Part shown: in pieces, positions 37,529-52,479 of the stretch
Layout: each line of letters starts with the position of its first letter
How positions within the stretch are numbered: the first letter of the stretch is position 1
Assembly: GCA_003001975.1 (NCBI GenBank)
Contig: PVUG01000004.1
Location: 248,001 to 312,000 of the forward strand
DNA length: 64,000 bases
DNA from: Martelella mediterranea
GTDB lineage: Bacteria > Pseudomonadota > Alphaproteobacteria > Rhizobiales > Rhizobiaceae
Reading direction: 5' to 3'
Position numbers and translations under genes: made by a program
Notes under the pieces: generated by a model
What the model saw: the letters and a program-made list of their open reading frames with translations, nothing else
The model's database searches: none
What the model was told of the DNA's origin: nothing

Positions 37529-37544
37529 TATTTCGTAAACAGTA

Positions 37545-37754
37545 CTATCGAACCAATGTATCCTTCGCCGAAATACGCCCGAACAGGGCGAGCAATCCAC
37601 CGGACGCACCGGCAAAGGTCGTGATCGATGTGGCCAGATCGCTCTGCATGCCCTCATCCAGATAGATTCCCCCCATCTGGAAGAGCGGAGCGGCAACCGC
37701 AAGCAGCGCGCCCCACACGGTCTTGGAGAGATACCATTTTTTTGCGTAATCCAT
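37545..37754 (-). CDS. Small phage-like membrane protein at end of GTA cluster
   Basis: A 69-residue protein starting MDYAKKWYLSKTVWGALLAV. It has two hydrophobic segments (about 11-28 and 43-60) and ends GRISAKDTLVR. Small proteins of this pattern (YLSKTVWG...YGR..AK) occur near holins and at the end of tail modules in phages. AGAAAGGAA precedes the start, 16 bases after the megatron stop, so it is co-transcribed with the GTA genes. A holin-like role in particle release is possible but unproven. Confidence 0.6.
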   Translation of the reverse strand: MDYAKKWYLSKTVWGALLAVAAPLFQMGGIYLDEGMQSDLATSITTFAGASGGLLALFGRISAKDTLVR

Positions 37755-37770
37755 GCCATTTCCTTTCTGT

Positions 37771-40700
37771 TCAGCCTGGAAGTGAAATCTGCGCATTGAG
37801 TGCCGTTCCAAGCGGCACTTTCCGACCCATCTGGCGAAGACGAATCGAAAACAGCTCGGGCCGCGCCCCGAAATCGGCAATCTGGTCGACTTCCGGATAG
37901 AGCCATTCCGGCGATGTCGTATCGACACTGCGCACGCGCGTTTCGCCGGCGAATATTTCCAGACGGTAGGCTTCCGTTTCTTCGTCGAGCGGGATTTCGG
38001 CAGCGCTCCAGTCATCGGCATCGATGCGGGAGCGTCGTATCCAGCGAAAGGCGACATCGCCCGAAGCCAGGCGCCGTCCCCTGAAGTGAACAGGCGAAAG
38101 CGGCGTTTCCGCGCGGATACCGCCGGCAAAGCTATAGGGCGCCTGCGGATCGATCTGTCCATATGCCGTTTCAACGACATAGTTGCGCGCAAGGCCGACA
38201 TGCTGAGCACTGATGCCAAGAGGAACAACCGAAGCGTTGAGCACGACGGCATCGGCACCCGCAGATGCGCCGGCGGCCATCGCATCTTCCGTACCGTGCA
38301 ATCCGCGCAGCAGGCCGCTCACCCGCCAGCGGCCGGGCGACAGTTCCGCGGCATCGAGAAATCCGACGATTTCAAACACGCCGTTGTCGGCCCGGATGGC
38401 CAGCCGGTTTTCCCCGCTCAGCACCGCGGCCTTGGTTGCCGAGGCAAGACCGCCGAAGTCCAGATCGATAACCAGTTCGCGGCTGAAATCGAAACGTCCG
38501 CTGATCCCCGGCGTCAGCGGCGATACCTGCGTAGCGGTCGCTGCCGGCCTCTCTGCGACCGCGCCGGGCTGATAGCCCTCCGTGGTCGCCGACGATGCAA
38601 TGAAGCACCGCCGCCAGGGTCTGGCAAAAACCGCAATCCGCGCGAAATCCTCCGAAGCGCCGGCCCTGTCGCGTGCCAAATCCAGAAACATGACACGCGG
38701 AGAGAAACCTTCGGAGGGCATATTATCCGGGCTATGCCATCGGTCTGTCACTCTTGCGACATTGCCTGCACCGGGCGAAAACGACCGTGCCTCAACCTTG
38801 ATCGTGTCGGCAAGTTCAAGCCTGGTCACCATGAACCGTCCGGCGGGGCCATCCTTGAGATCAAAAACGTCGCCGATTTCCACACTGCGTTCCTGTGGCG
38901 ACAGGTCAAGCTGAAGCGTGCGCACCGCGATCCGGCTTTCGCGCAACAGTGCCGACGCACGTTCGATCGCCGTTGCCTCGGGCAGAACCGTCGGCAGCCC
39001 GTATCGCAATACCCGGTCATTTGCCGCAACAGCGCGGCTCGATCGTGCGCTTGCCTGCTCGTAACGGGTTGCCGGGTCCAGATAGGTCACGGTAGCTTCA
39101 CCCGCCAGATCGCTGTCATGCAGACGCGTTTCCCGCCACAGGCCGGCGGCCTCATCGGGCTCTGCGAGGATTTCGATCTGCCGCGACGGCAGGCTTGCGC
39201 GCTGGCGCGAGCGAAATACCAGACCGCCGGCGGTTTCAATGCAGTCGGCCAGATAGAGCGAAAGCAACGGCTCGATCAGATCACGCGCTGCATCGATATC
39301 GGCTTGCTGATATCCGACCAGATCGCCGCTCAGCAAACGGGTGTCGCAGTCATGAAAACCATGATCGGCAAGCAGCGTGCGCACCGTGTCGGCAAGCGTC
39401 GTTGCCCCCAGCCTGCCGTTCAGCCAGTGCCCGGTCGCCCAGTTGTCGCCATCGCTCCACAATTCACCATTTTGCGGAAAGGCAGGGTAAGGCCGGATAT
39501 CCCAGCACCACAGGAAGATATGGTCGGGATCAACCATGCCCACGGGGGTCTGTGCACCGGCCCACCAGTCAAGATGGGTTTCCAGAAAACGGCGCTGTTC
39601 GTCATCCGAACGTCTGCCGTTTGAAAAATACGGATAGGCGGACTCCGCCGATTTCGGGTCAGCAAACACGTTCGGCTGGCCGCTGCCCTTGTCGACGGCC
39701 GGGCAACCGAGTTCGGTAAACCAGATCGGCTTGGCCATCGGCGTCCAGGAAGATGGTGTTGCCGCCTCGCTGCCGCCGACCCGGTTGTAGTGCAGATTGG
39801 TCCACCAGCCTTCAAGGTCCTTGTAGCGATAGACCCATGGCTTGCCGGCCAGCCCGTCGGTGATCGGGCTTCGGACACGCATCTTCCGGTCGGCATCGCT
39901 GGCATAATACCAGTCAAAGCCCTCACCGGCCGCAACCTGGCCCTCCAGCCCGGTCGGATCGGTCGCAGTCCGGAAACCATCCGGGTTATCGGCGGCAAGA
40001 TCGTCGTCGCGCCAGTCGGAAAGCGGCATGTAATTGTCGATACCGATGGCGGTGATATCCGGACTTGCCCAAAGCGCATCGAGATTGAAATAGACATCGC
40101 CGCTGCCATCGGCGGGGTGATAGCCGAAATATTCGCTCCAGTCGGCACCATAGGTCAGCGCCGTTTCCGGCCCCAGAATACCCCGCACGTCAGCGGCAAG
40201 CTCAACCAGCCCTTCGACAAACGGAAAGGCGTCGTTCTGGTCGCGGATCGCGGTCAGGCCGCGCAATTCCGAGCCGATGATGAAACCATCGACACCGCCG
40301 CTTGCTGCCGCCAGATGTGCATAGTGCAAGATGAGGCGCCTGTATCCGGCATCGGAACCGGCAAAGCCGACGCCATCATCCCCCGGCGTAAAATCATGCG
40401 GCTCGGCCGTGCCCAGAAACGCCTCGACATCGGCCCGCGCCTCGGCCGTACGATCCGTTGTCCCCGGTTGTCCGGCAGCGGGGTGACAGGTAATGCGTCC
40501 GCGCCAGGGATAGACCGCCTGTTGCGCGCCGCCGTAAGGGTCGGGCAGACCGTTTTCCTCGGGCACATCCATCATGATGAAAGGGTAGAGAAACACCTTC
40601 AGGCCCCGTGCCCTGAGATCGCCGATCGCCGCCATCAGCCCCGCATCGTTGGGCGTGCCGCCATAGGCCGGGCCACCCTCATGGGTGCTCACCACATAGG

Positions 40701-41628
40701 CCTCGTCGCGGGCGATTCCCGAAACCCGCCAGGGCGTGCTTTCCGCGGCCCGATGCGGCGTTTCCACTCCCGGACGGATCTTGCACGCTCCGGCCCTCAG
40801 ATCCGTTCCGAACCAGGTTACCACCAGCGCGACGCGCTCCAGATTGGGGCAAAGCGCCATCAGTTCGTCAAAGGAGGCTTCCCAGTCCGTTGTCCGCACC
40901 AGCGTGTTGCGGTTCATGATCCGTTGCTGGCCGCTGCCGAGCGATTCCGTTACCGGAAACGGACAAAGTCCGTGCTCAGTCGCGCCCGGAATGATGGCAA
41001 CGGCCTTCACCTGGTTTTCCAGCGCACCGGTGGGCCTCAGCACTTCGAACTGAAAAACCGGAATCCGGTTCCCGAACGTATCAAGCGGCAGACGTTCGAA
41101 GACGACATAGCTCAGCCCGCGATAGGCCGGCGCGTTGCCCGTTCCCTGCTTGGCCTCGATCAGAGGGTCCGGCAACTGATTGTCATCGCCGGCATAAAAG
41201 CGCATTTCGATCGTGGTAAGATCCAGCTCACGCCCGTCCGCCCAGACCCGCCGGATCGCGGCAACAGGACCTTCGCAAATCCCGAAGGCGAAATTGCCGA
41301 AATAGGAGAAGCTTTCGACCGTGGGGCCGGCGGATGCCTTGCCGCCGGTCCGTTCCTCGACCACTTCCTCCTCAAAGCGCGTCGCCCAGATCAGCGTGCC
41401 GCCGATCCGCGATGTGCCGTAGACGCGCGGTATCGCAGCGCCTTCCTCGGCTCCGCCCATACGAGCTGTTGGCAGGTGCCGCCCGCTGACCCTGCGCCCG
41501 CCGGAAAACAACGAATTGTCGACGGCAGCGCCGGCCAGCGCCCCCAGCGCCCGCCCGGCAACTGCGCCGAAGGGCCCGAAGACACTGCCGATCACGGCGC
41601 CTGCCGCCTGAAACACGATTGTCGCCAT
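37771..41628 (-). CDS. GTA megatron / host-specificity protein (RcGTA g15)
   Basis: A 1285-residue tail-tip protein. The N-terminus (1-60) has a glycine-rich hydrophobic segment (VIGSVFGPFGAVAGRALGAL). The GTA TIM-barrel glycoside-hydrolase-like domain follows (about 400-740; HYAHLAAASGGVDGFIIGSE and KPIWFTELGCPAVDKG). Then come phage-tail fibre modules, with SGLLRGLHGTEDAM and SFAGGIRAETPLSPV near the end. Known: in RcGTA it forms the central fibre and cell-wall contact. Length fits (about 1300). ATG at 41628 is the start; the longer frame to 41781 overlaps g14. A 97-base gap separates it from g14. Confidence 0.93.
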   Translation of the reverse strand: MATIVFQAAGAVIGSVFGPFGAVAGRALGALAGAAVDNSLFSGGRRVSGRHLPTARMGGAEEGAAIPRVYGTSRIGGTLIWATRFEEEVVEERTGGKASAGPTVESFSYFGNFAFGICEGPVAAIRRVWADGRELDLTTIEMRFYAGDDNQLPDPLIEAKQGTGNAPAYRGLSYVVFERLPLDTFGNRIPVFQFEVLRPTGALENQVKAVAIIPGATEHGLCPFPVTESLGSGQQRIMNRNTLVRTTDWEASFDELMALCPNLERVALVVTWFGTDLRAGACKIRPGVETPHRAAESTPWRVSGIARDEAYVVSTHEGGPAYGGTPNDAGLMAAIGDLRARGLKVFLYPFIMMDVPEENGLPDPYGGAQQAVYPWRGRITCHPAAGQPGTTDRTAEARADVEAFLGTAEPHDFTPGDDGVGFAGSDAGYRRLILHYAHLAAASGGVDGFIIGSELRGLTAIRDQNDAFPFVEGLVELAADVRGILGPETALTYGADWSEYFGYHPADGSGDVYFNLDALWASPDITAIGIDNYMPLSDWRDDDLAADNPDGFRTATDPTGLEGQVAAGEGFDWYYASDADRKMRVRSPITDGLAGKPWVYRYKDLEGWWTNLHYNRVGGSEAATPSSWTPMAKPIWFTELGCPAVDKGSGQPNVFADPKSAESAYPYFSNGRRSDDEQRRFLETHLDWWAGAQTPVGMVDPDHIFLWCWDIRPYPAFPQNGELWSDGDNWATGHWLNGRLGATTLADTVRTLLADHGFHDCDTRLLSGDLVGYQQADIDAARDLIEPLLSLYLADCIETAGGLVFRSRQRASLPSRQIEILAEPDEAAGLWRETRLHDSDLAGEATVTYLDPATRYEQASARSSRAVAANDRVLRYGLPTVLPEATAIERASALLRESRIAVRTLQLDLSPQERSVEIGDVFDLKDGPAGRFMVTRLELADTIKVEARSFSPGAGNVARVTDRWHSPDNMPSEGFSPRVMFLDLARDRAGASEDFARIAVFARPWRRCFIASSATTEGYQPGAVAERPAATATQVSPLTPGISGRFDFSRELVIDLDFGGLASATKAAVLSGENRLAIRADNGVFEIVGFLDAAELSPGRWRVSGLLRGLHGTEDAMAAGASAGADAVVLNASVVPLGISAQHVGLARNYVVETAYGQIDPQAPYSFAGGIRAETPLSPVHFRGRRLASGDVAFRWIRRSRIDADDWSAAEIPLDEETEAYRLEIFAGETRVRSVDTTSPEWLYPEVDQIADFGARPELFSIRLRQMGRKVPLGTALNAQISLPG

Positions 41629-41725
41629 TGCCAGAACCTCGATCAGGAAACGGGCCGCGCCATGCCTGAGGCAGACAGGGCCGGTCTCTTTTTTTGTATT
41701 TGAAGAATTGCGAACGCAGGCTGCG

Positions 41726-42184
41726 TCAGTCAGTGCCGGACCGCACGGGTGGAAAATCGGGAAACCGGTAGACGCCGGCAATCCGCCGCCGCCATCCGGG
41801 AACGAGTGACGAGCAGATCACCCCCGCCTGCTCGTAGGCGTGGATGAACTGATCGTCTGCGCTCAGGATCCCGGCGTGTTTGGCGGCAAACTGCGCGCGC
41901 CAGCGAAACAACAGGATATCCCCGGGGGCCATCTGTTCGAGAGCGATCGCCGTACCGCAATAACGGGCAGCGGCGTCCAGCAGCCGTTCCCGGCCGGTGC
42001 GTTCGGCCCAGTCGGCAGCATAAGGCGCGCCGATACCCGGAACCTCACCGTAAAGTCGCCCCCACACCCCCCGAATAAGCCCGAGACAATCGCAACCGAC
42101 ACCAATCTCCGAAGCCTGGTGGCGATAGGGTGTCCCGATCCACTTTTCGGCCTCGGCGACGGCGCGTGCCCCCATCGTTGTCAT
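41726..42184 (-). CDS. GTA NlpC/P60 peptidase (RcGTA g14)
   Basis: A 152-residue NlpC/P60 cysteine peptidase of the tail tip that cuts peptidoglycan so DNA can enter. The catalytic Cys is in IGVGCDCLGLIRGVW and the catalytic His in FAAKHAGIL. WIGTPYRHQA is the typical family opening. The start overlaps the g13 stop (ATGA). Confidence 0.92.
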   Translation of the reverse strand: MTTMGARAVAEAEKWIGTPYRHQASEIGVGCDCLGLIRGVWGRLYGEVPGIGAPYAADWAERTGRERLLDAAARYCGTAIALEQMAPGDILLFRWRAQFAAKHAGILSADDQFIHAYEQAGVICSSLVPGWRRRIAGVYRFPDFPPVRSGTD

Positions 42185-43071
42185 TTGAAGATCGGGCTTC
42201 CGTCATGCGTGCTTTCGCCATTCACATAGGAATAGCCGAAATCAGCACCGGGCATGTGCGGAAAGCCGCGAAAATTGAGATGATTGGCGAACTTGTTGCG
42301 GCAGGTGGAAAATGCCTTGTCGCACCCCGCCGTCAGGCGCACCTGATCTCCGGCCTCGGGCATGCTCTCAAGGGGCAACCACAGATCAATACGCATGTCG
42401 CTGGATGAAAGCGCGTTGGTTTCGATGTCGAAACGACGCCCGGCAAGATTGCCGCTTTCAAAGCTCAACACACCATGGGCGAAAAACCCTTCGGAAAAAT
42501 CGCCGCCTGCCGTCACCAAAATCCGGGTATCGGTTTCAACCGCGGCAACCGTTCCGGTCGTGAAGAAGCCGGGGCTTTGCGGGTTGAAGCCACAGGCCGT
42601 ATCCCCGAACACGGCATCGCAACGCCGGGTGAAGCTGCGCCCCTGCGGCTGTGACAACCGATGGGTGATCGCCCGCAATTCGGCACTGAAGCCGCCACCT
42701 TCGCGCGAAACTTCGCCGACCTCGTAGACCTGCATGATCTGGTGCTGATCGGGCGCTTGCCAATTCACAAGAAAAACCTCCACGCGCGCGCCGTCATAGT
42801 CGCCGGCCGCCAGTGCTTCTTCCGTAATGGCATCATTGGAAAAACCGCCGACGACCTCATTGGTGCTGGCCGCAAGGCCGTCCTCGGCCTCGAAGCCGGA
42901 GGAAGAAAAACCACTTGCCGCCAGAAAATGCGTCCCGGCAAAAACGAGATCGCGATCATGCTCGGTAAAGCCGAGAACGGTTCCGTTTTTCAACACAAGC
43001 CGCCAGCAGTGGCAGACAGTGGTTGCGTCCTGCACAAGGTGCGCCTGCAGCGCCGCATTCATTGCTCTCAT
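42181..43071 (-). CDS. GTA tail hub protein, DUF2163 (RcGTA g13)
   Basis: A 296-residue baseplate hub protein of the DUF2163/phage BR0599 family. It starts with a helix, then CHCWRLVLKNGTVLGFTEHD, the family hallmark. C-terminal Cys residues (GCDKAFSTCRNKFANHLNFRG) probably bind an iron-sulfur cluster, as found in the RcGTA hub. Starts and stops overlap g12 and g14 by four bases each. Confidence 0.92.
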   Translation of the reverse strand: MRAMNAALQAHLVQDATTVCHCWRLVLKNGTVLGFTEHDRDLVFAGTHFLAASGFSSSGFEAEDGLAASTNEVVGGFSNDAITEEALAAGDYDGARVEVFLVNWQAPDQHQIMQVYEVGEVSREGGGFSAELRAITHRLSQPQGRSFTRRCDAVFGDTACGFNPQSPGFFTTGTVAAVETDTRILVTAGGDFSEGFFAHGVLSFESGNLAGRRFDIETNALSSSDMRIDLWLPLESMPEAGDQVRLTAGCDKAFSTCRNKFANHLNFRGFPHMPGADFGYSYVNGESTHDGSPIFK

Positions 43072-43709
43072 GGCATGATCTCCACCAGCGGCACAGATGG
43101 CACACTGCCCGCATTGAAGGCTTTCATATTGATGTCGATGCGATCGATATCGAAGCGGACCGGCACATCGAAAACATATCCGGCGAATATCTCCGCTCCG
43201 TCTGCCGGCACCGCTCCGGCGTCAAAGGTGACGATCCCGGTCGTCGCATCGACGGAGAAATCCGTTTCCGGGCTCTCGATCCCGTCGACCGAAACCCGCA
43301 CGGTTTCGGCCACCGGTTTTTCGATCGTCCGCACAAACGCAGCCGCGCTGTCGCCATAGGTCTTGATCAGCTGAAACGCGGTCGTGGCGCCATCCCCTTG
43401 CCCGATCCGTTGATCCGACGGCCCGGGTTCGGCAAGCGGCCCGCAGGACTTGAAGTCGACCGGGTCGCGAAAGCGAAAACCGTAAAGCTGGCCGTTCCGC
43501 GCCTCGAAAAATGCCGTCAGTTCATACAAGTCCGCAATCGAACGAACCGCGGAACCGGCATCATAGGAGCGCCTGGAATTGCGCCAGCGCTGGTTGCGGT
43601 TTTCCCGTCCGTTGGAAAGGTTGACAATATCGGTGTGTCGCACCGGCCCGCCGCTGACGGCAAGCGACAGCCGCAACGGAAAGCGCACGTCGTGAAAGCT
43701 CGTGCTCAT
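43068..43709 (-). CDS. GTA distal tail protein, DUF2460 (RcGTA g12)
   Basis: A 213-residue protein of the DUF2460 family. It begins with FHDVRFPLRLSLAVSGGP and has LTAFFEARNGQLYGFRFRDP, both typical. AGGAGG precedes the start, 9 bases after the tape-measure gene. It links tail tube and hub. Confidence 0.93.
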   Translation of the reverse strand: MSTSFHDVRFPLRLSLAVSGGPVRHTDIVNLSNGRENRNQRWRNSRRSYDAGSAVRSIADLYELTAFFEARNGQLYGFRFRDPVDFKSCGPLAEPGPSDQRIGQGDGATTAFQLIKTYGDSAAAFVRTIEKPVAETVRVSVDGIESPETDFSVDATTGIVTFDAGAVPADGAEIFAGYVFDVPVRFDIDRIDINMKAFNAGSVPSVPLVEIMP

Positions 43710-43718
43710 GGTGCCTCC

Positions 43719-44303
43719 TCAGATATTACGCTGACCGGAGCGCACGGCTCTGGCCAGCATCGCCGAGATCTGCCCCTGGCTCTTCTGGAAGCTCGCGGCA
43801 TCCTGCGCCGTCACGTTGAAGACGATCTGCGGCCCGCCGCCGCCCGAAGCGGCAACGCCAAGCGCACCGTCGGAACCGCGCTTCAGGGGCAGGATCGCCT
43901 CGCTGCCGGCTTCTCCCATCAGCCCGAGCTCGCCGCTCACCGGAAAATAGGTCGGCCGCGAAACCACACCGCCTGAAGCAAATGGCGTAATCCGGCCCGG
44001 CACCCCGCCATTGGCATGGGTAAACACCTGAACCAGTCCTTCGGCAAGATTGCCGATCTGGCCGGAAATCGCATTTTCGAGCGGCTTCAGCGCCGAGTTC
44101 AACGCCAGTTCGGAAAGCCGCCGCCCGAGGTCCCCCAGCACGGTCTGCAACCCCTTGCCGGAGAGCGTCGCATCCTTCAGTGCGCCGGTGATCGCCCTCG
44201 AAAACCGGTCGGACTGCGCCTCAAGGTCGCCCAGAACGTCATAAAGCGCACTCGCACCGCTCACGGCATCGGCATAATTATCGCTTGTGTCAGGTTCCAT
44301 CAC
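43719..44303 (-). CDS. GTA short tape measure protein (RcGTA g11)
   Basis: A 194-residue protein in the position of the tail tape measure. The short length matches RcGTA g11 (about 220) and fits a short tail. It is helical with TVLGDLGRRLSELALNSAL, then a Gly-rich segment with the phage motif FASGGVVSRPTYFP and LMGEAGSEAILPL, common to tape measure C-termini. The start overlaps the g10.1 stop. Confidence 0.88.
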   Translation of the reverse strand: MMEPDTSDNYADAVSGASALYDVLGDLEAQSDRFSRAITGALKDATLSGKGLQTVLGDLGRRLSELALNSALKPLENAISGQIGNLAEGLVQVFTHANGGVPGRITPFASGGVVSRPTYFPVSGELGLMGEAGSEAILPLKRGSDGALGVAASGGGGPQIVFNVTAQDAASFQKSQGQISAMLARAVRSGQRNI

Positions 44304-44472
44304 CGTTCCTCGCTTGGTCGGGGTAACGCATCATCAGGTCTTCAAGGTTCGCCCGTGTCGGATAGGGCGCGACCGGCACAAAAGCCCCCGTCATCGCCGC
44401 AAATTCGACCGGTGAAAGCGCCCAGAAATCGTCAGGTTGCAGCCGCAGCAGGCAAAGCCCCGTATGAAGCAC
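44290..44472 (-). CDS. GTA tail assembly chaperone (RcGTA g10.1)
   Basis: A 60-residue product with LCLLRLQPDDFWALSPVEFA, the conserved phage tail-assembly chaperone pattern of the g10/g10.1 pair. The only start I can find is GTG at 44472, with a weak ribosome-binding site; codons upstream stay open but have no start, so ribosomal frameshifting or re-initiation from g10 (stop at 44526) is possible. It overlaps g11 by 14 bases. Confidence 0.75.
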   Translation of the reverse strand: MLHTGLCLLRLQPDDFWALSPVEFAAMTGAFVPVAPYPTRANLEDLMMRYPDQARNGDGT

Positions 44473-44525
44473 CGACCGCCAGGGGAACGGTTCGGCGCCG
44501 GGAGGTTCGGGCGCTGCCGCTGCGG

Positions 44526-44906
44526 CTAGGAAGGGTCCGGCGTGTTTCCGTCCGTTTGCGGACGAACAGCCTCTCCTCCCGAAAAGGTCACGGTCAGAAG
44601 TTCACCGGCGAGTTTCGCATAGGCCGCCACGCCGCCTTCCATGCTCATCGCCGCCACCTCGTCGTCGTCGATCGCATTGCCGCCGCCGCGCAGCCCTGCG
44701 CCAATGATGGCAATCAGGTCATGCGCTTTCAGCCGTCCCGAACCCAGCCGTTTTCCAAGATCACCGAGACCATCGGCCGAAAACGCCGTCTCAAGCTCTG
44801 CCAGCGCGCCCAGCGTGAGGCACAGAATACGGCGTTCGCCGTCAATCACCGCCTCCACCTCACCGCGATAGCGGTTGGCGCGGCCATGGGCATCGCTGCG
44901 TGTCAT
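44526..44906 (-). CDS. GTA tail tube chaperone, GTA-gp10 family
   Basis: A 126-residue protein with NRYRGEVEAVIDGERRILCL and TLGALAELETAF, the gene-transfer-agent gp10 family pattern. It probably keeps tail components soluble during assembly. The start overlaps the g9 stop (ATGA). Confidence 0.9.
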   Translation of the reverse strand: MTRSDAHGRANRYRGEVEAVIDGERRILCLTLGALAELETAFSADGLGDLGKRLGSGRLKAHDLIAIIGAGLRGGGNAIDDDEVAAMSMEGGVAAYAKLAGELLTVTFSGGEAVRPQTDGNTPDPS

Positions 44907-45316
44907 GCTCCGCCTCCAAAGCTGATCGCCCCGCCCGATTCAAGGGCGACCTCGAACTGCAGCTCGCCATTATGCTGGCCGGAATATTCGAGCGATGTGA
45001 ACTGGAACGGACCGGCAAGCGTGCCGAAACCCGGGATCACGATCTCCGCACTCACAAGCGCACCGGCAAAAAAAGCCACCCGCACCGTTTCATCGGACGC
45101 CGCATCTTTGAAAATACCGCTCGCCGTCAGCGAGGCGCGCTGAATGCCCGCGCCGCCGAGAAGTTCGCGCCAGCGTCCCGCACTTTCCGAATCGGTAATG
45201 TCCACCGTTTCGGCATTGAACGCCAGCCGCTTCGACCTGAGGCCGGCAACCGTCTCATAGGCACTTCCATTATGCAGCTTCAGCAGCAGATCCTTGGCCT
45301 TCTGGGCTGTCATCAC
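44903..45316 (-). CDS. GTA tail tube protein (RcGTA g9)
   Basis: A 137-residue major tail protein, the same length as in RcGTA. It starts MMTAQKAKDLLLKLHNG and has FNAETVDITDSESAGRWRELL, the phage major-tail (TP901-1-like) signature. It begins 32 bases after g8, with its own ribosome-binding site. Confidence 0.92.
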   Translation of the reverse strand: MMTAQKAKDLLLKLHNGSAYETVAGLRSKRLAFNAETVDITDSESAGRWRELLGGAGIQRASLTASGIFKDAASDETVRVAFFAGALVSAEIVIPGFGTLAGPFQFTSLEYSGQHNGELQFEVALESGGAISFGGGA

Positions 45317-45348
45317 ACTCTCCGTTCAGAATTGGAAAAAGGGCCGGC

Positions 45349-45756
45349 TCAGGCGGGTTCGGTCACGGCGCGAAACCGCATTTCGGCGAGGAAATAGCCG
45401 GTCCGCGTCACCCGTCGCACCCGCGTGGAGCGGTGCAGCAGGTTGATCAGCGCAAATCCGGAAAGGCTCAGATCGCTGTCATGAAGCAGCGCTTTCACCC
45501 GCGCCTCGATTGTCTGCAACGTCTTGCGACCATGCGCCTCCGACCAGATTTCAATGGTCAGAAAATGCTCGCTTCCGCTCTCCGTGGACGTCGAATAGTC
45601 GCGGGTCTCGCATTCTCCAAAGACAATGGCCGGCAAACGCGGCCGGCTGAGCAGCCGGTCAAAAATTGCATCGGCGCCGATCAGTGCCGACAGTGCCGCA
45701 TCGGAATTCAGCGTCCTGTGGATTGCGCCGAGCAGCGCGTTTTCAGCAGAACTCAT
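45349..45756 (-). CDS. GTA tail terminator, DUF3168 (RcGTA g8)
   Basis: A 135-residue DUF3168 protein. It begins SSAENALLGAIHRTLNSD and has LPAIVFGECETRDYST; HGRKTLQTIEARVKALLHD is the conserved helix. The start at 45756 overlaps the g7 stop (ATGA); the longer frame to 45774 is not needed. Confidence 0.92.
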   Translation of the reverse strand: MSSAENALLGAIHRTLNSDAALSALIGADAIFDRLLSRPRLPAIVFGECETRDYSTSTESGSEHFLTIEIWSEAHGRKTLQTIEARVKALLHDSDLSLSGFALINLLHRSTRVRRVTRTGYFLAEMRFRAVTEPA

Positions 45757-46085
45757 GTCGCCACCTCCTCGCAACGGCAGACCGTATAGCGCCCGGTCTC
45801 ATCCGGATCGCGCCAGCCGGCCAGTCTGAAAACCCGGCTGCCGCGCCGAAATCGCATGCCGGGCACGAGATCAGCGCGCGCCCTCAGCCAGATTTCGTGG
45901 GTCACCCGAAAGGTCTCGCCATTGGCCTCTTCGCTGAAGGCAATCGATACGGGTTCGATCCGGGCCCAGGCTTTTGCGAAGGCCACATAGGTGATTGTTG
46001 CACCGCCCTGCCCGTCAGAGGTGGCCTCAGGCGTCATCAAATCGAGACGCGCGGAAAATGCGCCGGGGTCGAGTGTCAGCATCAA
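45753..46085 (-). CDS. GTA head-closure (stopper) protein (RcGTA g7)
   Basis: A 110-residue protein of the phage SPP1 gp16-like head-tail joining family. LDLMTPEATSDGQGGATITY and VTHEIWLRARADLVPGMRF are typical. It overlaps g6 and g8 by four bases each. Confidence 0.9.
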   Translation of the reverse strand: MMLTLDPGAFSARLDLMTPEATSDGQGGATITYVAFAKAWARIEPVSIAFSEEANGETFRVTHEIWLRARADLVPGMRFRRGSRVFRLAGWRDPDETGRYTVCRCEEVAT

Positions 46086-46648
46086 AGCCTCCAGGCTTTC
46101 AGCGGCGCAATCAGCCGGTCATAACCATCCGGCGCACCGGCAGGCTGCTGCTCGGCGCTGACGACCCCGCGAAAGACAAACATGTGGGCGACGTGGCGCA
46201 GGATCGCCTGCCTGGCGACCTCCGGCACATCCGCCGCGGCTCCGAACCCGGCCGTAAAATCAACCTCGATCCCGTTCACGCCCGCACGCCGTCCGGCAAG
46301 CGCCGGCAGATAGAACCGCGCCGGCCGCGCCCGGCCATCCAGCCGCGCACGATCAAGCGAAACAACGGACGGCGTACCGCCGCCATCGTAGACCGTGACG
46401 GCCTCGACCGATTGCACCGGCCCGCGCGCCAGCGACACCATTCCGCTTGACGGCCAGTCGTCACGGCACAGCCGCCATTGCTGGGTCACCAGCGAAAGGC
46501 CGCTGATCGTCTCCAGATAATCCCGTGCCGTGGTGATCAGATCGCCCAGCAGCGTGTCCTCGTCACCATTGTCCAGTCGCAGAAAATCCCTGGCCTCGGA
46601 GACCGTCACCGGTTCTTCCGCTGCCGGCGTGATCAGGGCATAACTCAT
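46082..46648 (-). CDS. GTA head-tail adaptor (RcGTA g6)
   Basis: A 188-residue phage gp6-like adaptor. It begins EEPVTVSEARDFLRLDNGDED, the usual opening of this family, and has LLGDLITTARDYLETISG. Its start lies after an unusual 293-base gap from the capsid gene that holds a terminator and a RIME-like repeat. Confidence 0.92.
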   Translation of the reverse strand: MSYALITPAAEEPVTVSEARDFLRLDNGDEDTLLGDLITTARDYLETISGLSLVTQQWRLCRDDWPSSGMVSLARGPVQSVEAVTVYDGGGTPSVVSLDRARLDGRARPARFYLPALAGRRAGVNGIEVDFTAGFGAAADVPEVARQAILRHVAHMFVFRGVVSAEQQPAGAPDGYDRLIAPLKAWRL

Positions 46649-46671
46649 CGCAATCGTGTCCTTGTGCCATC

Positions 46672-46699
46672 AAAAAACCCCGGCAGAACCTGCCGGGGT
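46672..46699 (-). terminator. Intrinsic terminator T3 inside GTA cluster, after capsid
   Basis: On the minus strand ACCCCGGCAG and CTGCCGGGGT pair over ten bases with a three-base loop and run into six T. It lies between the capsid stop (46942) and g6 (46648) and is oriented to stop GTA transcription. Confidence 0.85.
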
Positions 46700-46760
46700 G
46701 CAGTTTGTTGACAAAGCCAGCGACGTGAATGTGCGGGTCGCACCCGGCTTTCCCAACGGG

Positions 46761-46872
46761 GTCATGCTCGGACTTGATCCGAGCATCCATTACGCTCAAG
46801 CAATTGAACATAAATTATTTTCAGGCACGCCTCATATCGCCATGGATCCTCCGATCAAGCCGGAGGATGACG
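46761..46872. repeat. RIME-like palindromic element inside GTA cluster
   Basis: Palindromes ATGCTCGGA-CTTGA-TCCGAGCAT and ATCCTCCG-ATCAA-GCCGGAGGAT flank an AT-rich centre. They are related to the elements at 3921-4080 and 6476-6640. It is placed between capsid and g6. Confidence 0.7.
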
Positions 46873-46941
46873 CCGAGGCGAGTGGCAGGTTTGTCAACAA
46901 CCCGGCCCGTGGTAGAGGCTGCTTCGTTTCCCTTCCGCCGC

Positions 46942-48186
46942 TTACGCTTCGCCGAACTTCACCAGCTTGATCGCCTCGAAGTTCTGCACCCCGCCGCCCA
47001 CGCGCTTGGTGGTGTAGAACAGCACGTAGGGCTTGGCGGAATAGGGATCGCGCAGCACCCGCACACCGGCGCGGTCGACAACCAGATAACCGGCGGCGAA
47101 ATCACCAAAGGCGATCGACATGCTGTCGGTCCCGACATCCGGCATGTCTTCCGCCTCGGTCACCGGAAAGCCCATCAGCGAGGCTGGCTGGCCGAGACTT
47201 GCAGGTGGCTGCCAGAGATAGTTGCCGTCATCGTCCTTGAACTTGCGGATCGCCCCTTGCGTCTTCCGGTTCATCACGAAATTTGCGTTCTGGCGGTGCG
47301 CCGCCTTCAGCGCATAGATCGTCTCGATCAGCGTATCGGAAGGATCGGCCGCCTTGAAGTCGCCATCGACGCCGGTGGCGATATAGCCGATCATATCCCA
47401 CTCCCAGGCGCTGTCGGCCACGGTGGTGTAGCTCAGGAACCCCTTGGGCGTATTCACCGTATTGCCGTTGACGAAGGCCGCCCCTTCCTGCTCGGCAAAG
47501 GCGATATCGATCTCAGAAGCGATCCAGCTTTCGACATCGACAGCCGCATCGTCAAGCAGCGAGGCGCTTGCCGCCGGCATGGCGTAAAGCTCCATCGTCG
47601 GGAAGGTCAGTTCGGAGATATCCGGCGTTGCCGTCTGGTCGCGATCGGCAATCTCGCCGACCCAGCCGGCCGTGAAGCCCGAGGCGATGAACGGCTTCTT
47701 CAGCACCGCGCCAGAAACCTGGCGCACCGTTGCCAGCCGGCGGATCGGCGAGACGGCGGAAAGCCTGCGGCCGATTTCCGTGTCGGTCTCATCCGGCACC
47801 AGATAGCCGCCATCGCTTTCCGTCGTCGAGATCGCCTTGGCCTCAAGCGCCCGGAGGCCATGCTCGTCACCACGGCGGATATAATTCTCGAACGCCGCCT
47901 TGTGCTCGCTCGCCGCAAGGCTCGTGCCGCGGCCAAGAGCTGGTCGCGCCTTCTTCAGCTGGATTTCCTCAAGTTGGCGGGCCTGTGCATCCATGGCGCG
48001 GTTGATGCGGTCGACCTTTTCGCGGGTCACCACATCCTCGCCCATCTTGCTTTCGATTTCGCCAAGCCGGCGGTCATTGGCATCCTTGAAGCTCTCGAAG
48101 CTCGACATGAACGCCTCGAACGCCTCCGAAATGCTCGCGGGCGCACTCTTGATCTCGGGCGCCGCTTTCATCTTCATATCTGTCAC
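46942..48186 (-). CDS. GTA major capsid protein (RcGTA g5)
   Basis: A 414-residue HK97-fold capsid protein. The N-terminal delta/scaffold region (about 1-110) is coiled coil (EAFMSSFESFKDANDRRLGE) and would be cut off by the g4 protease. The mature part begins near SLAASEHKAAFENYIRRGDE and contains GGYLVPDETDTEI, VNGNTVNTPKGFLSY and VMNRKTQGAIRKFKD. Length is normal (about 400). It follows g4 in the same direction. Confidence 0.95.
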   Translation of the reverse strand: MTDMKMKAAPEIKSAPASISEAFEAFMSSFESFKDANDRRLGEIESKMGEDVVTREKVDRINRAMDAQARQLEEIQLKKARPALGRGTSLAASEHKAAFENYIRRGDEHGLRALEAKAISTTESDGGYLVPDETDTEIGRRLSAVSPIRRLATVRQVSGAVLKKPFIASGFTAGWVGEIADRDQTATPDISELTFPTMELYAMPAASASLLDDAAVDVESWIASEIDIAFAEQEGAAFVNGNTVNTPKGFLSYTTVADSAWEWDMIGYIATGVDGDFKAADPSDTLIETIYALKAAHRQNANFVMNRKTQGAIRKFKDDDGNYLWQPPASLGQPASLMGFPVTEAEDMPDVGTDSMSIAFGDFAAGYLVVDRAGVRVLRDPYSAKPYVLFYTTKRVGGGVQNFEAIKLVKFGEA

Positions 48187-48214
48187 GATGAATTCCTTTC
48201 AGTGATTGAAAAGG

Positions 48215-48931
48215 TCAGGACGACATCAACCGGCGTGCACGGTTCAAAAGCCCGAGCAGCCGTTCGTCGTCGGTCTCGTCGCCGCCGGCCGCATCCCGCC
48301 CGCCGACCAGCGCGTCATAGCCGCCGGACAGAAGCCGGCGCGCCGCCTTTCGGCTCAGGCCGGCATCCCGCGTCAGCCATCGCTCGAATTCCCTGATGGT
48401 GGGAAATGCGTCACCGGCCTGCTTCACGCTGGCAATGCGTGCCGATGGCAGCATCGGAAAGGTGACGATTGAAATTTCCCAGAGATCCGCTTCCAGCACC
48501 CGGCGCACCCCGGTTTTCGCATCGGTCTTGGCGCGCACGGTCTGAAACCCGATGGAAAGCCCGTCGAGACCGCCGGATTTCATCAGCGCATGCACCTCGC
48601 GGGCCCGCGCCACATCGGCCGAAAGCACACCCTCGACATAAAGCCCGCGCCCATCCTCGCGGATCTTGCGCCAGGCGCCGATCGGCTCGGACGGATCGTG
48701 CTGGAACAGCATTCGCACGCCTTCGGCCCCACGTTTCTGCAGCGAGCGCGAAAACGCGCCGCGCTCGATCATGTCCTTGCCGAGATCGATTTCGCCGAAC
48801 AGGCTGGCATAGCCGGAAAACGAGCCGTCGCCGGCAAGATCGGTCAGCGACAGATCGGCATATTTCAGTTCATCGGCCAGCATGGTTTTCCCGCCCATAT
48901 CCGCTCCTGTTTCAGGATTTTTGTTGCTCAT
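48215..48931 (-). CDS. GTA prohead protease (RcGTA g4)
   Basis: A 238-residue HK97-family prohead protease (peptidase U35). It has the active-site His in MLFQHDPSEPIGAW and the Ser region LDGLSIGFQT, with LWEISIVTFPMLPSA downstream. The start at 48931 lies two bases after the portal stop; the longer frame to 49000 overlaps the portal gene. Confidence 0.93.
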   Translation of the reverse strand: MSNKNPETGADMGGKTMLADELKYADLSLTDLAGDGSFSGYASLFGEIDLGKDMIERGAFSRSLQKRGAEGVRMLFQHDPSEPIGAWRKIREDGRGLYVEGVLSADVARAREVHALMKSGGLDGLSIGFQTVRAKTDAKTGVRRVLEADLWEISIVTFPMLPSARIASVKQAGDAFPTIREFERWLTRDAGLSRKAARRLLSGGYDALVGGRDAAGGDETDDERLLGLLNRARRLMSS

Positions 48932-48933
48932 GC

Positions 48934-50091
48934 TCAGTACCCCACGGCCTCGCGCTTCTCTTCGTCGGTGAGGAAAGCGGCCGCAGAAACGCGGGCCCAC
49001 AGCGCATCGCGTTCGGCGGCAAGGGCCGGCACCTGATCGAGGTCGGGTTCAAGCTTCAGCCCCTCGCCGTAAACCGGCTCCAGCCAGGCCGTCAGCGAGG
49101 CGGCGGTGCGGGCAATCAGCGGCAGCACGGTCAACCGGTAGAAGGCGCGGTTGGCCTCCTGATAGTTGGAATAAGTGTTGTCACCGGGAATGCCGAGCAT
49201 CATCGGCGGCACGCCGATGGCAAGCGCGATATCACGGGCCGCCCCATTGCGCGCCTCGGTAAAATCCATGTCGCGCGGCGTCAGCCCCATCGCCTTCCAG
49301 TCGAGCCCGCCTTCCAGAAGCAGCGGCCGCCCGGCCTTCACCGGGCCGCTATAGCCCTCTTCCAGCTCCTGCTTCAGCCGCTCATACTGTTCCTCGGTCA
49401 GGTTACCGCCATCCTTGGGCTGATAGACCAGCGCGCCGGACGGTCGAGCCGAATTGTCGAGCAGCGCCTTGTTCCAGACCGATGCCGCATTGTGCAGGTC
49501 GAGCGCCCGCTGGGCAGCGGCCAGCGGCGAAAATCCCGTCTGGTCGTCGAGCGGATGAAACAGCCGCATATGAAGCAGGCTCAAACCATCACCTTCGGCG
49601 GCAAACCGGCTTACATGATTGCCGGTGCGATATTCATAAGCCTCCGGCCAGCCGTCACGCCCCTCGATGACGCGGATACGGTCAGGCCTCAGAAGATGCA
49701 GCTCGCGCAAATCCTCGCCCAGAACGATCGGTTCGACATAGGCATTGCCCGAAAGCAGCAACGCCCCGAACAGGGCTTCGAGAAAATCCGCCCCGCACAT
49801 GCGCCGGTTCGGCCGTTTCAAAAGCGAAAGCAGCGGGTGGTCGGCGACAAGCGTGCCGTTTTCGAACAATTGCCAGGGCATGTTCCCTGCCGCCTCGGCG
49901 ATCAGCCGGACAGCCCGATGGGCGACCGGGTTTTTCATGAACCCCTCGCGGGCAAGGGCGGTGTAAGAGCGGCCGGACCAGCGCGCCTCGCCGCTCAGCG
50001 CCAGCGCGGAGACCATTGTCGCCGCCTTTTTATCGGACACGCGGGCAGCGTCGGCCGGGCGCCTGCCCGGCAGATGAAAGGGCATTTTCAT
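48934..50091 (-). CDS. GTA portal protein (RcGTA g3)
   Basis: A 385-residue HK97-type portal. It has NPVAHRAVRLIAEAAGNMPW, FLEALFGALLLSGNAY, MRLFHPLDDQTGFSPL and the tail motif VPPMMLGIPGDNTYSNYQEA. Length matches RcGTA g3 (396). A terminator and a Dabb gene lie between it and the large terminase. Confidence 0.95.
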   Translation of the reverse strand: MKMPFHLPGRRPADAARVSDKKAATMVSALALSGEARWSGRSYTALAREGFMKNPVAHRAVRLIAEAAGNMPWQLFENGTLVADHPLLSLLKRPNRRMCGADFLEALFGALLLSGNAYVEPIVLGEDLRELHLLRPDRIRVIEGRDGWPEAYEYRTGNHVSRFAAEGDGLSLLHMRLFHPLDDQTGFSPLAAAQRALDLHNAASVWNKALLDNSARPSGALVYQPKDGGNLTEEQYERLKQELEEGYSGPVKAGRPLLLEGGLDWKAMGLTPRDMDFTEARNGAARDIALAIGVPPMMLGIPGDNTYSNYQEANRAFYRLTVLPLIARTAASLTAWLEPVYGEGLKLEPDLDQVPALAAERDALWARVSAAAFLTDEEKREAVGY

Positions 50092-50120
50092 GCCTCACCC
50101 CTTTTTCCTTGGCTTGAAAC

Positions 50121-50147
50121 AAAAAAGCCCCGGCGAACCGGGGCTTT
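50121..50147 (-). terminator. Intrinsic terminator T2 inside GTA cluster, before portal
   Basis: On the minus strand AAAGCCCCGG and CCGGGGCTTT pair perfectly over ten bases around a four-base loop and run into T. It lies 24 bases past the Dabb stop and 30 bases before the portal start. Confidence 0.85.
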
Positions 50148-50171
50148 GTCAGTCAAATTTCAGTTGAGACC

Positions 50172-50489
50172 TCAGTCCCTGTAGCGCGAGTGCCGCACTG
50201 CAACCGAAGAGTCAAAATCGGCGGCAATCCGCATTTCGCGGAGCGGCCGGACCAGAGAGGTCGACTTCTCATAAAGCGGGTGGGCGCGATAGGCGGCAAG
50301 CGCCGCCTCGTCCTCAAACTCGCCATAGACGATGAAATCGACTTTCTCGTCATAAAGATCGCTGCGCGCGTTGCGGCCGATCTCCAGCACTGTTGCATGC
50401 GGGTTTTCCGTCAGGATCGAAAGACCGGCCTCGACCGCATCCGCGTCACCGCCTTCCGGCACCGAAAAGAAAACGATATGTCTGATCAT
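50172..50489 (-). CDS. Dabb-domain protein inserted in GTA cluster
   Basis: A 105-residue stress-responsive alpha/beta-barrel (Dabb) protein: MIRHIVFFSVPEG, then VDFIVYGEFEDEAALAAYRAH, the family signature. Dabb proteins form dimeric ferredoxin-like barrels; most bacterial members have no known function. It is on the GTA strand between terminase and portal, where RcGTA has no such gene, and is followed by terminator T2. An 84-base gap separates it from the terminase. It looks like a cellular gene captured by the cluster. Confidence 0.85.
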   Translation of the reverse strand: MIRHIVFFSVPEGGDADAVEAGLSILTENPHATVLEIGRNARSDLYDEKVDFIVYGEFEDEAALAAYRAHPLYEKSTSLVRPLREMRIAADFDSSVAVRHSRYRD

Positions 50490-50573
50490 GCGAAAACCTC
50501 ATGCAATGCCGAAACGGCCGATAGCGGCAACCGGCTAGCATGCGGCATTGTGCGGTGCAAGCGTCAATAGCGC

Positions 50574-51905
50574 TCAAACGCCGCGCACCCGCGGCACGCC
50601 GTCGCCCTCCAGGAGCAAAGCCGTCAGTGCCCAGACCAGCGCATCCAGCCGGTCAGGCGAGCGTCCGGCGGAAAGCCCATCCGGCCCGAAATCGCACATC
50701 TGGTCGACGAGCCGGGCAAAATGCCCCGCATGGCGCACCCTGCCCTGCTCGTAGAGTGCCGCCACCGGTTCGGCGCGCAGAAACTTGCCGCGTTTGGCCC
50801 TGACCGTCGAAACCGGCAGGCGTTCGTCAACGCTTTTGAGCATTGCGGTCACCATATCGCCGCCCTGATTGATCTCCGCCACCACCCGGTCGGCATCGAA
50901 CCGGCGAAACGCCTCGACCACCGCCAGCGCCCATTGCGCCGGCGTCCCGCCCTCAACGGAACAGTCCGCCAGCACCAATGCGCCATCATTTTCCATGGCT
51001 CCGGCAACCACGATGCCGCAGACGGATCGGCGGCCGGAGCCCGAAGGCGGGTCGACGGCAACGACAATCCGCCCCGTCGCCATTGCATTGCGCGAAACGG
51101 CCGCCTCAAGCTCCATGCGCCGCCAGAGCCCGTCCTCGCGGTCCTCGATCAGCTCGCCGTCCAGTTCCTGGCGGCCAAGCCGCGTGCCGCCATAGCGGCT
51201 CGCAAGCGCCTTGATGAACCCTGGCGCCAGATTGGCGCGGTTATCCGCCGTCGCAATCCGCGTCAGCGCCGTATCATTCTCCGCCATCAGCTTTTTCAGC
51301 AGCGGCACGGCACGCGGCGTTGTCGTCACCATCTGGCACGGCGTTGCGCCGAGCCGCAGCCCGAACTGCAACATATCCCAGCATTCCTGGCCGTAACGCC
51401 ATTTCGCCAGCTCATCGCACCAGGCAAAATGAAACTGCGGCCCGCGCAGCGCCTCCGGGTCCTCGGAGGAAAACAGATAGGCCATGGCGCCATTCGGCCA
51501 AACCAGCCTGCGCCGCGTGATCTCGAAAACCGGTTTCATCCGCCGCGCCACCCGGCAAATGCCGGATACGCCGTCAATCATCACCTCGCGGGCATCGCCC
51601 AGCGTTTCGGCCACCAGCGCCATGCGCAGATCGCTTTTCGGCCCGCCGGCAAGCGCCAGCCCATGCACCCATTCCGCCCCGGCGCGGGTCTTGCCGGAAC
51701 CGCGTCCGCCCATCAAAAGCCACGTCCGCCAGTGCCCTGCCGGCGGCAGTTGTTCCGGCCGTGCCAGAAACGACCAGTCACGCGCCAGTTCGCGGACAAA
51801 GGCATAAGGATCATACGGTGCCCGGTCCGGCCCGCTCGGCGATCCGCTTTTGCGCCAGTTCCTCGGCCCGCTTTTCAATGAGGTCGAGGAAGTGGGCTTT
51901 GGCAT
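50574..51905 (-). CDS. GTA large terminase subunit TerL (RcGTA g2)
   Basis: A 443-residue DNA-packaging ATPase and nuclease. Walker A is LLMGGRGSGKTRAGAEW (about 63-79). Walker B with catalytic Glu is QFHFAWCDELAKW. The coupling motif region is MVTTTPRAVPLLKKL. The RNase-H-like nuclease begins IVVAVDPPSGSG, with VAEINQGGDMV and DRLDALVWALTALL near the end. The start is uncertain: ATG at 51905 with AGGG 9 bases upstream overlaps the end of g1 by 95 bases, and conserved sequence begins only near APYDPYAF. Confidence 0.93.
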   Translation of the reverse strand: MPKPTSSTSLKSGPRNWRKSGSPSGPDRAPYDPYAFVRELARDWSFLARPEQLPPAGHWRTWLLMGGRGSGKTRAGAEWVHGLALAGGPKSDLRMALVAETLGDAREVMIDGVSGICRVARRMKPVFEITRRRLVWPNGAMAYLFSSEDPEALRGPQFHFAWCDELAKWRYGQECWDMLQFGLRLGATPCQMVTTTPRAVPLLKKLMAENDTALTRIATADNRANLAPGFIKALASRYGGTRLGRQELDGELIEDREDGLWRRMELEAAVSRNAMATGRIVVAVDPPSGSGRRSVCGIVVAGAMENDGALVLADCSVEGGTPAQWALAVVEAFRRFDADRVVAEINQGGDMVTAMLKSVDERLPVSTVRAKRGKFLRAEPVAALYEQGRVRHAGHFARLVDQMCDFGPDGLSAGRSPDRLDALVWALTALLLEGDGVPRVRGV

Positions 51906-52311
51906 CGTCATAGTCCCTGAGGTTGAGATCGCGCTCTTCCGCATTGCGGCGGCTTTCGGCAAGCCGGCGCTGCAGTTCGTCGGCCTTTTCCAGCGTGCGG
52001 ATGATCAGCGCCACCGCGTCGGCCGCCGCCTTCACCTCGCCGCGCACATCCGTCGCATCACCGTCTTCGGCGCGGCTCTTCTTCACCGCCGCCATCCGCA
52101 GTTTGCGGAAAAAGGCAAACTGGGCCCGCATCTCGGCCGTCAGATCGTTCAGCAAAAGCCTGAGCGCATCATCGGCATCGCCACTGCGCGCCTTCGGCTC
52201 GATCACATGATAGGCCGCATCCACACGCCGCCCGGCGAGATCGCCATCATAGCGCGGGCTGCGCGGCCAAAGCCCGAACAGCGAAATATCGCATGTCTCA
52301 TGGTCAACCAC
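51811..52311 (-). CDS. GTA small terminase subunit TerS (RcGTA g1), probable
   Basis: A 166-residue protein, first in the GTA cluster. The GTG start at 52311 is fixed by a very strong AAGGAGGT site; longer readings run back through the leader terminator. The N-terminal 60 residues (DISLFGLWPRSPRYDGD) are followed by a long charged helical region (AADAVALIIRTLEKADELQR ... HFLDLIEKRAEELAQ). RcGTA g1 is the small terminase and is also small and coiled coil rich. Identification rests on position and helical pattern. Confidence 0.75.
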   Translation of the reverse strand: MVDHETCDISLFGLWPRSPRYDGDLAGRRVDAAYHVIEPKARSGDADDALRLLLNDLTAEMRAQFAFFRKLRMAAVKKSRAEDGDATDVRGEVKAAADAVALIIRTLEKADELQRRLAESRRNAEERDLNLRDYDDAKAHFLDLIEKRAEELAQKRIAERAGPGTV

Positions 52312-52349
52312 GAAACCTCCTTCCGGCGCTCCGGCAGCCGTTCGGCAAC

Positions 52350-52376
52350 AAAAAAGCCCGGTTGGAAAACCGGGCT
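52350..52376 (-). terminator. Intrinsic terminator T1 in GTA leader
   Basis: On the minus strand AGCCCGGTT and AACCGGGCT pair over nine bases with a four-base loop and run into six T. It lies downstream of the candidate GTA promoter and 39 bases before the g1 start, so transcripts from that promoter must read through it. It could also end the upstream AhpD-like gene. Confidence 0.85.
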
Positions 52377-52450
52377 GAAAAATCGGATGATGAGCCTGAA
52401 ACCGGGTTTGGTGTCGTCTCCGACCCTCACAGATTTCCGACTGTAGATAA

Positions 52451-52479
52451 AACCTATCAAACGACCGTAACGCCGTCAA
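52451..52479 (-). promoter_or_regulatory. Candidate GTA promoter
   Basis: On the minus strand TTGACG (52479-52474), a 17-base spacer and TAGGTT (52456-52451). The expected start is near 52444, giving a 130-base leader with terminator T1. The DNA just upstream is AT-rich (52483-52510), which would suit IHF-type bending; no factor site can be named with confidence. Confidence 0.55.

Follow-up and report, generated by a model that had tools for sequence, protein, structure and literature searches.

We analyzed a 64,000-nucleotide stretch of Martelella mediterranea DNA (hereafter the window), in which a gene transfer agent (GTA) cluster, derived from a domesticated virus, runs on the minus strand from 52479 down to 37545. 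Judged by its sequence and by analogy with known systems, this cluster very probably forms one late operon under processive antitermination of the Q/AlpA type, with GafZ, a protein of the DUF6456 family, as the candidate antiterminator. As read from sequence, the window holds all three elements of a Q-type system: an element between the -35 and -10 hexamers, a pause-type hexamer at the predicted transcription start, and a leader terminator.

Coding-strand terminators in the cluster and across the order

The first-pass annotation of this DNA had placed three strong intrinsic terminators on the coding strand of the cluster, and a self-coded score of the d'Aubenton-Carafa type, used with a cut-off of 15, bore them out. 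Each has a tail of 6 T and lies on the minus strand: t1 in the leader (52350–52376; hairpin 52375–52356; score 33.8), t2 before the portal gene (50121–50147; hairpin 50144–50127; score 51.6), and t3 after the major capsid protein (MCP) gene (46672–46699; hairpin 46698–46678; score 44.7). None of 100 dinucleotide shuffles of the cluster contained a site scoring at least 30. With a cruder scan of both strands over 19.5 kb, terminator-like sites numbered 28, compared with 20.6 ± 4.3 after shuffling, and because this is near shuffle level, only the stringent score separates t1–t3 from chance. Counting the window, all 12 leaders of the same genus have t1, each of the 12 clusters that include the relevant stretch has t2, and all 13 clusters have t3; the stretch fetched for locus L004 stops short of t1 and t2. 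A t1 was also present in locus L184 (score 16.7). The stems of t1 and t3 vary on both sides across species with pairing retained (for example, at pairs 2, 3, and 5 from the loop in t3), and that of t2 changes on one side only.

The next start lies 48 nt beyond the hairpin end for t1, 36 nt for t2, and 30 nt for t3; in the same genus this distance ranges from 25 to 61 nt, with one exception of 137 nt that is set by where the homology match starts. Such short gaps leave little (t1) or no (t2, t3) space for a full promoter and ribosome site, and a sigma-70-like promoter scan of the window listed none downstream of any of the three. The first-pass annotation had also read the terminators as dividers of the cluster into units. 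This does not hold for t1, which sits inside the leader, 69–89 nt after the predicted start; by analogy, t1 resembles lambda tR' or AlpA tB and not a gene divider. The t2 terminator, which stands behind a gene with a Dabb domain, may have arrived together with that gene.

We extended the count to 80 fetched GTA loci representing 24 families in the order, which with the window gave a first set of 81 oriented loci. Internal terminators were counted in the 71 clusters (window included) with the large terminase (TerL) gene and g15 in range, 10 of 81 being dropped for a TerL or g15 that lay outside the range or was misplaced in order. At a score of at least 15, the coding strand of these clusters holds 61 terminators and the opposite strand 1. 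The 59 clusters from outside the genus hold 35 and 1, with at least one in 26 of the 59. The nuo operon from 20 of the same genomes, bounded by nuoA and nuoN matches and amounting to 320 kb, contained none. When loops of up to 12 nt were allowed, the counts were 61/1 for all clusters, 35/1 outside the genus, and 1/0 for nuo stretches of fixed coordinates. Counted from first to last structural match, and with family labels assigned by hand, an internal terminator occurs in 15 of the 24 families, a leader terminator in 7, and at least one of the two in 17. The commonest junctions are TerL/portal, MCP/g6, and g8/tail tube, some genomes being counted twice.

A further set of 80 named loci showed a weaker excess, with 45 same-strand and 11 opposite-strand terminators. 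All 11 of the latter fall in gaps of 1.4–5 kb after TerL, a confinement that fits inserted cargo. Stretches in this named set end at the last GTA gene within a 10-kb flank, and the set overlaps the first in species, so the two counts are not summed. Terminators retained as a class while their places shift fit general read-through better than the regulation of single genes.

The promoter block and start-site hexamer

Alignment of the same-genus leaders revealed an almost invariant block upstream of t1, absent from the first-pass annotation. It has five parts: an inverted repeat AGGA-N6-TCCT (the box) touching the -35; TTGAC; a conserved spacer; TAGGGT; and transcribed sequence to about +17. On the minus strand of the window, leader alignment and promoter matrix place the -35 element TTGACG at 52474–52479 and the -10 element TAGGTT at 52451–52456. 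Between them lies a 17-bp spacer (52457–52473) whose conserved columns spell GCGTTACGGTC, a candidate GafZ-binding element in the position of that of Caulobacter. The initial transcribed sequence from +1 to +17 (52428–52444) is conserved in an alignment of 135 distinct promoters. In these 135, seven spacer columns carry 1.3–1.9 bits, and the commonest spacer type is C[A/G]GCGTGACGGTG. A related palindrome, CAGCGTgACGCTG, which includes the last two -35 bases, is perfect in some relatives; its arms form 6 of 6 pairs in 15 of the 135 promoters and at least 4 in 89.

A matrix spanning the block from the box to the -10, with the transcribed part omitted, matches 145 of 169 GTA stretches when the threshold is set 3 bits above the best of 40 nuo strands, although it was derived from part of the very loci scanned. 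The matches comprise 60 of 81 first-set stretches, 78 of 80 in the named set, and 7 of the 8 additional leader stretches. Eleven of the 24 unmatched stretches lack a TerL start or hold less than 2 kb before TerL. Locus L027, a cluster split by long other sequence, has three copies of the promoter block (at 476, 7755, and 14081), before terminase, portal, and capsid, with a leader terminator behind two of the three. Locus L079 has a promoter match between TerL and portal. In the genome of the window, the -35/spacer motif with up to 2 mismatches is no commoner than its control, and its sole exact match is the GTA promoter. Outside the order, only the upstream matches of L261 and L263 exceed the opposite-strand best of all 20 class-level loci; L264, L266, and L276 show a related start-site sequence, by eye only. 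The published Caulobacter promoter elements gave no match in 385 genomes of the class.

With the transcription start predicted from -10 spacing to be the A at 52444, the hexamer TACAGT (52440–52445, minus strand) would occupy -1 to +5, and this -10-like sequence is a candidate sigma-dependent pause element. Across promoters, A stands at the predicted start in 95% (weighted), with C or T before it, and T stands at +5 in 94%, giving a consensus of YAYnGT from -1 to +5. A+1 and T+5 occur jointly in 130 of the 135 distinct promoters (weighted 0.94, vs 0.034 expected), and the only offsets comparable to this pair are the -10 itself and the spacer element. The register is the same as that of the AlpA hexamer CACGAT, also at -1 to +5. 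Downstream, 59 of the 135 promoters have a leader terminator within 300 nt, at a median of 94 nt from predicted start to hairpin end. The opposite strand over that stretch has one in 0 of 135, and the 300 nt upstream of the box in 2 of 135.

In locus L028 (genome G024), the promoter keeps the box and has a spacer and start-site sequence off the consensus, as if the loading site decayed without GafZ, in this one case.

The cluster genes, GafZ and a candidate operator

The gafYZ pair (62733–63684) lies about 11 kb upstream of the large terminase. On the minus strand, gafZ, the candidate antiterminator (62733–63323), matches DUF6456 (PF20057, E=1.5e-39), its true start being probably inside the open reading frame (ORF); gafY, a candidate activator (63253–63684), matches the DnaA-type helix-turn-helix family PF08299. 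The genome has a single DUF6456 match, gafZ itself, and the family was found in 13 of 13 same-genus genomes. A structure model of GafZ built from 8 sequences has a mean predicted local distance difference test (pLDDT) score of 73.6, with ten-residue means of 86–95 over residues 91–150. Among its best 50 matches, the model aligns with many sigma region 4 domains at Z 6–7. With phage 21 Q, which gave the longest aligned stretch among the matches listed, Z was 6.6 in both entries, over 94 residues in 6jny (root-mean-square deviation 3.1) and over 107 residues in 6p18 (deviation 6.6); a Z below 8 possibly reflects only a common arrangement. A Foldseek comparison with the PDB returned no match at E 0.001, and comparison with a viral structure library finds phage DUF6456 proteins.

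Searching viral contigs with 30 aligned GafZ domains yielded 11 loci. The phage contig L302 runs primase, DUF6456, small terminase, TerL, head-tail adaptor, and the gap between DUF6456 and small terminase contains TTGACA, TAATTT, CATCAT, a GTA-like following sequence, and a hairpin with six T whose score of 13.5 is just below the cut-off. Of the 11 loci, only this one shows the composite promoter pattern, at a single site. L294 and L295 have structural genes 43–58% identical to those of the window. In both, DUF6456 immediately precedes a promoter-like sequence that has CATGGTCGA at the start and a palindrome in its spacer; a T-run hairpin can be seen by eye in L295, although the finder called none in either locus. 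Both may be GTAs and not phages. The stretch fetched for L306 (MW462191.1, "Bacteriophage sp.") resembles bacterial chromosome and carries a gafYZ-like pair together with a gene for a sulfur acceptor protein.

The inverted repeat at the -35 (AGGAAAATAATCCT, 52479–52492, minus strand) overlaps the first -35 base and is a candidate RogA-type operator of the GGAA-N4-TTCC class. All 12 same-genus leaders, that of the window among them, carry it, as do many other loci of the order. By sequence match, a second copy lies upstream of gafYZ (63801–63814, minus strand), where AGGANAATANTCCT with at most 1 mismatch is found in 12 of 13 same-genus genomes (window included). The -35-adjacent repeat was considered as a GafY box and rejected; an operator is likelier because the accessible text on RogA in Caulobacter describes a bound region containing GGAA-N4-TTCC repeats (Gozzi et al., PMC9632790). 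A RogA-type operator, its binding protein taken by analogy, is our suggestion for this repeat, and since the 14-bp repeat is shared by the GTA promoter and gafYZ, a RogA-like repressor might directly control both.

Genome-wide, AGGAANNNNTTCCT with at most 1 mismatch is about as frequent as its control (133 vs 125). Exact copies of AGGANAATANTCCT number five: the GTA site, the gafY site, the intergenic site L132, and two inside long reading frames. The genome has five S24-domain matches, among which a RogA gene was not singled out. At L132 (G000:C1:101734-101747), the exact box AGGAAAATAGTCCT stands between an ABC transporter gene, presumably LolD-like, and a 103-aa ORF.

By its genes, the cluster is a complete set like that of the Rhodobacter capsulatus GTA (RcGTA). 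Pfam and PHROG scans of the cluster proteins gave, along the minus strand, TerL, portal, S78 protease, HK97-type capsid, gp6 connector, head completion, gp17, tail tube, GTA-gp10, tape measure, DUF2460, BR0599, NlpC/P60, and GTA_TIM tail protein, so that the full structural set in RcGTA order described in the first-pass annotation is upheld. Its statement that integrase, replication, and lysogeny genes are lacking likewise agrees with our scan, which found no such family among the cluster proteins. Two frames had no family match, the g1-bearing ORF and a 246-aa ORF (37545–38285). The g1 gene (51811–52308) has homologues in the same place in relatives, a place we take to be the small terminase position of RcGTA-type clusters. 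Then follow the large terminase (50574–51962; PF03237/PF17289), the Dabb-domain gene, probably cargo (a moron; 50172–50489; PF07876), portal (48934–50091; PF04860), prohead protease (48215–49000; PF04586), major capsid (46942–48186; PF05065), and, by Pfam/PHROG matches, a connector-to-tail block from g6 to g15 (37771–46648), all on the minus strand. The end at 37545 is set by a minus-strand ORF of about 69 codons after g15 (37545–37755), with post-g15 matches in many relatives; the 246-aa ORF is not required for this boundary.

The Dabb (stress A/B barrel) gene was also seen in the GTA clusters of the 11 fetched same-genus relatives holding the stretch, and in L016 and L022. Elsewhere in the same genome (G000:C2:212552-213523) is a second, distant capsid match (35% identity), perhaps a prophage. 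The records L180 (Marinicella), L191 (a Pantoea metagenome-assembled genome), and L194 (an Arenimonas metagenome-assembled genome) have terminases 74–91% identical to that of the window and look misnamed or contaminated.

Proposed mechanism, alternatives and known systems

From sequence and analogy, we infer pausing, loading, and read-through in Martelella as follows. RNA polymerase, assisted by GafY, would initiate at the 52444 promoter; sigma region 2 would catch the -10-like hexamer at -1 to +5, and the polymerase would pause. GafZ on the -35/-10 element would load onto the paused polymerase with Nus factors, and the modified polymerase would pass the leader t1, then t2 and t3, to give a transcript of about 15 kb. 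Without GafZ, transcription would end at t1, leaving a leader RNA of about 90–95 nt, and leakage would be halted at t2 and t3. On this reading, a single regulator, GafZ, would determine whether the cluster as a whole is transcribed. For the dependence on GafZ-type antitermination proposed in the first-pass annotation, the comparative support is good, coming from conserved terminators, a Q/AlpA-like loading site, and co-occurring DUF6456, and such dependence is probable. The terminators may also silence stray expression, as that annotation proposed. We also lean slightly toward a wider view, in which GafZ/DUF6456 is a further lineage of Q-type late antiterminators, domesticated from phage with its whole loading site, from the -35/-10 binding element and the sigma-dependent pause to a tR'-like leader terminator, serving as master switch of RcGTA-like clusters in much of the order, copied when clusters split (three in L027), and letting terminators and cargo accumulate.

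Several observations weigh against this reading. Terminators are common, not universal: 33 of the 71 clusters have no internal terminator at a score of 15, and 76 of the 135 promoters have no canonical leader terminator within 300 nt. By analogy with Caulobacter, clusters that lack canonical hairpins may rely on other kinds of stop. Thirteen of the 24 stretches without a matrix match hold at least 2.4 kb upstream of TerL. When the whole block including its transcribed part was scored, seven of these 13 (L030, L042, L044, L057, L061, L063, and L068) reached 4 to 31 bits, compared with controls of -5.9 (nuo best) and -17.7 (opposite strand); L020, L023, L029, L048, and L078 did not rise above the controls, and L191 was left out. 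Outside the order, 18 of 20 class-level loci have no promoter match above the opposite-strand best. The L028 cluster has the box and an MCP/g6 terminator, and no DUF6456 was found in its genome. Roseobacter phage RDJL Phi 1 has DUF6456 in its early region, not beside the terminase, other RDJL phages likewise have it early, and in Acidithiobacillus phage AcaML1 it stands among early genes, after the primase, and does not adjoin a named terminase. Start-site preference may account for the conserved A at the start, and the other conserved transcribed positions might serve as a contact of GafZ on DNA or as a signal in the RNA. Finally, the accessible text of Tran and Le (PMC11150451) reports no similarity of GafZ to Q or AlpA.

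Three other explanations would require no antiterminator or give the hairpins to other genes. Leaky attenuators might set the amounts of capsid relative to connector and tail proteins. The position of t3 directly behind the major capsid gene is as expected from this, the main terminator of phage T7 having the same place, and MCP/g6 is among the two most frequent terminator junctions (36 entries, genomes partly counted twice). However, t1 precedes every gene and is unable to tune ratios, terminator places vary between lineages, and the promoter retains a Q/AlpA-like loading site; we consider such stoichiometric control unlikely. Conservation of the transcribed RNA from +1 to +17 would also be expected if that RNA controlled t1 by classical attenuation or as a switch, without GafZ. 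This is distinctly improbable to us, as conservation ends near +17 and leaves t2 and t3 unexplained, the pattern suits the AlpA register, and positions 37000–53200 gave no match to Rfam families.

That the hairpins are borrowed ends, marking the close of neighboring or inserted genes, t1 that of ahpD and t2 that of the Dabb gene, is suggested by the place of t2 immediately after the Dabb gene, by the frequency of extra sequence between TerL and portal, and by the post-TerL location of all 11 opposite-strand terminators in the named set. Yet t3 stands behind a structural gene, and terminators are far rarer upstream of the box than downstream of the promoter. The assignment of t1 to ahpD was rejected because the GTA promoter lies upstream of t1 and because L002, L005, L007, and L008 keep t1 although the upstream sequence fetched for them, roughly 2 kb, has no ahpD match. 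Borrowed ends have, in our estimate, a slighter chance still. Processive antitermination, if correct, suggests how a 15-kb operon with strong terminators and cargo genes stays silent until one protein is made. The conserved hexamer and leader terminator make GafZ loading a question of point mutations in many species, and the promoter block offers a sequence signature for finding GTA master promoters.

The nearest known system is that of Caulobacter crescentus, where, in the accessible text of Tran and Le (2024, PMC11150451), GafZ is an antiterminator, GafY and IHF activate the C. crescentus GTA (CcGTA), and the GafZ-binding element lies between -35 and -10. There, terGTA follows the first gene as three 150-bp GC-rich repeats, the start codon is at +251, and reporter tests covered the repeats that follow gtaT as well as E. 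coli rrnB T1; how GafZ loads onto RNA polymerase is left to future work. Martelella resembles it in an RcGTA-like cluster, separate gafY and gafZ, a -35/-10 GafZ element, and an early terminator. It differs in having simple T-tract hairpins, the first in the leader, followed by t2 and t3, instead of three 150-bp repeats after the first gene; in 37400–52900 we met no tandem repeat scoring at least 50 and no three 150-bp direct repeats of the CcGTA type. A further difference is that RogA in Caulobacter is described, in the accessible text, as enriched only at gafYZ and CCNA_02002 (PMC9632790), whereas the Martelella repeat also stands at the GTA promoter.

GafZ antitermination, the -35/-10 element, and terGTA are thus already known from Caulobacter; the pause element, the leader terminator, and the wide conservation are apparently new, in that no report of a GTA pause element, leader terminator, or order-wide promoter was found in the literature searched, a search with most subscription journals and bioRxiv outside its scope. 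Antitermination in the Bartonella GTA is reportedly the subject of a paper known from a reference list. The words "pause" and "pausing" are absent from PMC11150451, and "pause" is absent from PMC9638019. In Rhodobacter capsulatus, the C-terminal part of GafA, homologous to GafZ, binds a fragment with the -35, the -10, and the transcription start, and the split of gafA in the present order is already known (PMC9638019). The RcGTA account differs in explaining the effect of GafA by recruitment of the omega subunit, antitermination and terminators being unmentioned in the accessible text of that paper.

Lambdoid Q proteins need a -10-like sequence and an element between -35 and -10, as far as the accessible text of PMC6606751 describes them, and the phage 21 and lambda systems are like the Martelella cluster in their -35/-10 binding element, -10-like pause sequence, and late structural genes. 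GafZ differs from Q in acting together with GafY, and the likeness drawn between the two is one of layout. AlpA of Pseudomonas aeruginosa differs in controlling the lysis genes alpBCDE, GafZ being a DUF6456 protein. At its promoter PalpB, CACGAT occupies -1 to +5, and changes of A+1 or T+5 harm AlpA antitermination (PMC9371919, accessible text). The two systems thus share an element between -35 and -10, a hexamer at -1 to +5 with A+1 and T+5, and a terminator downstream.

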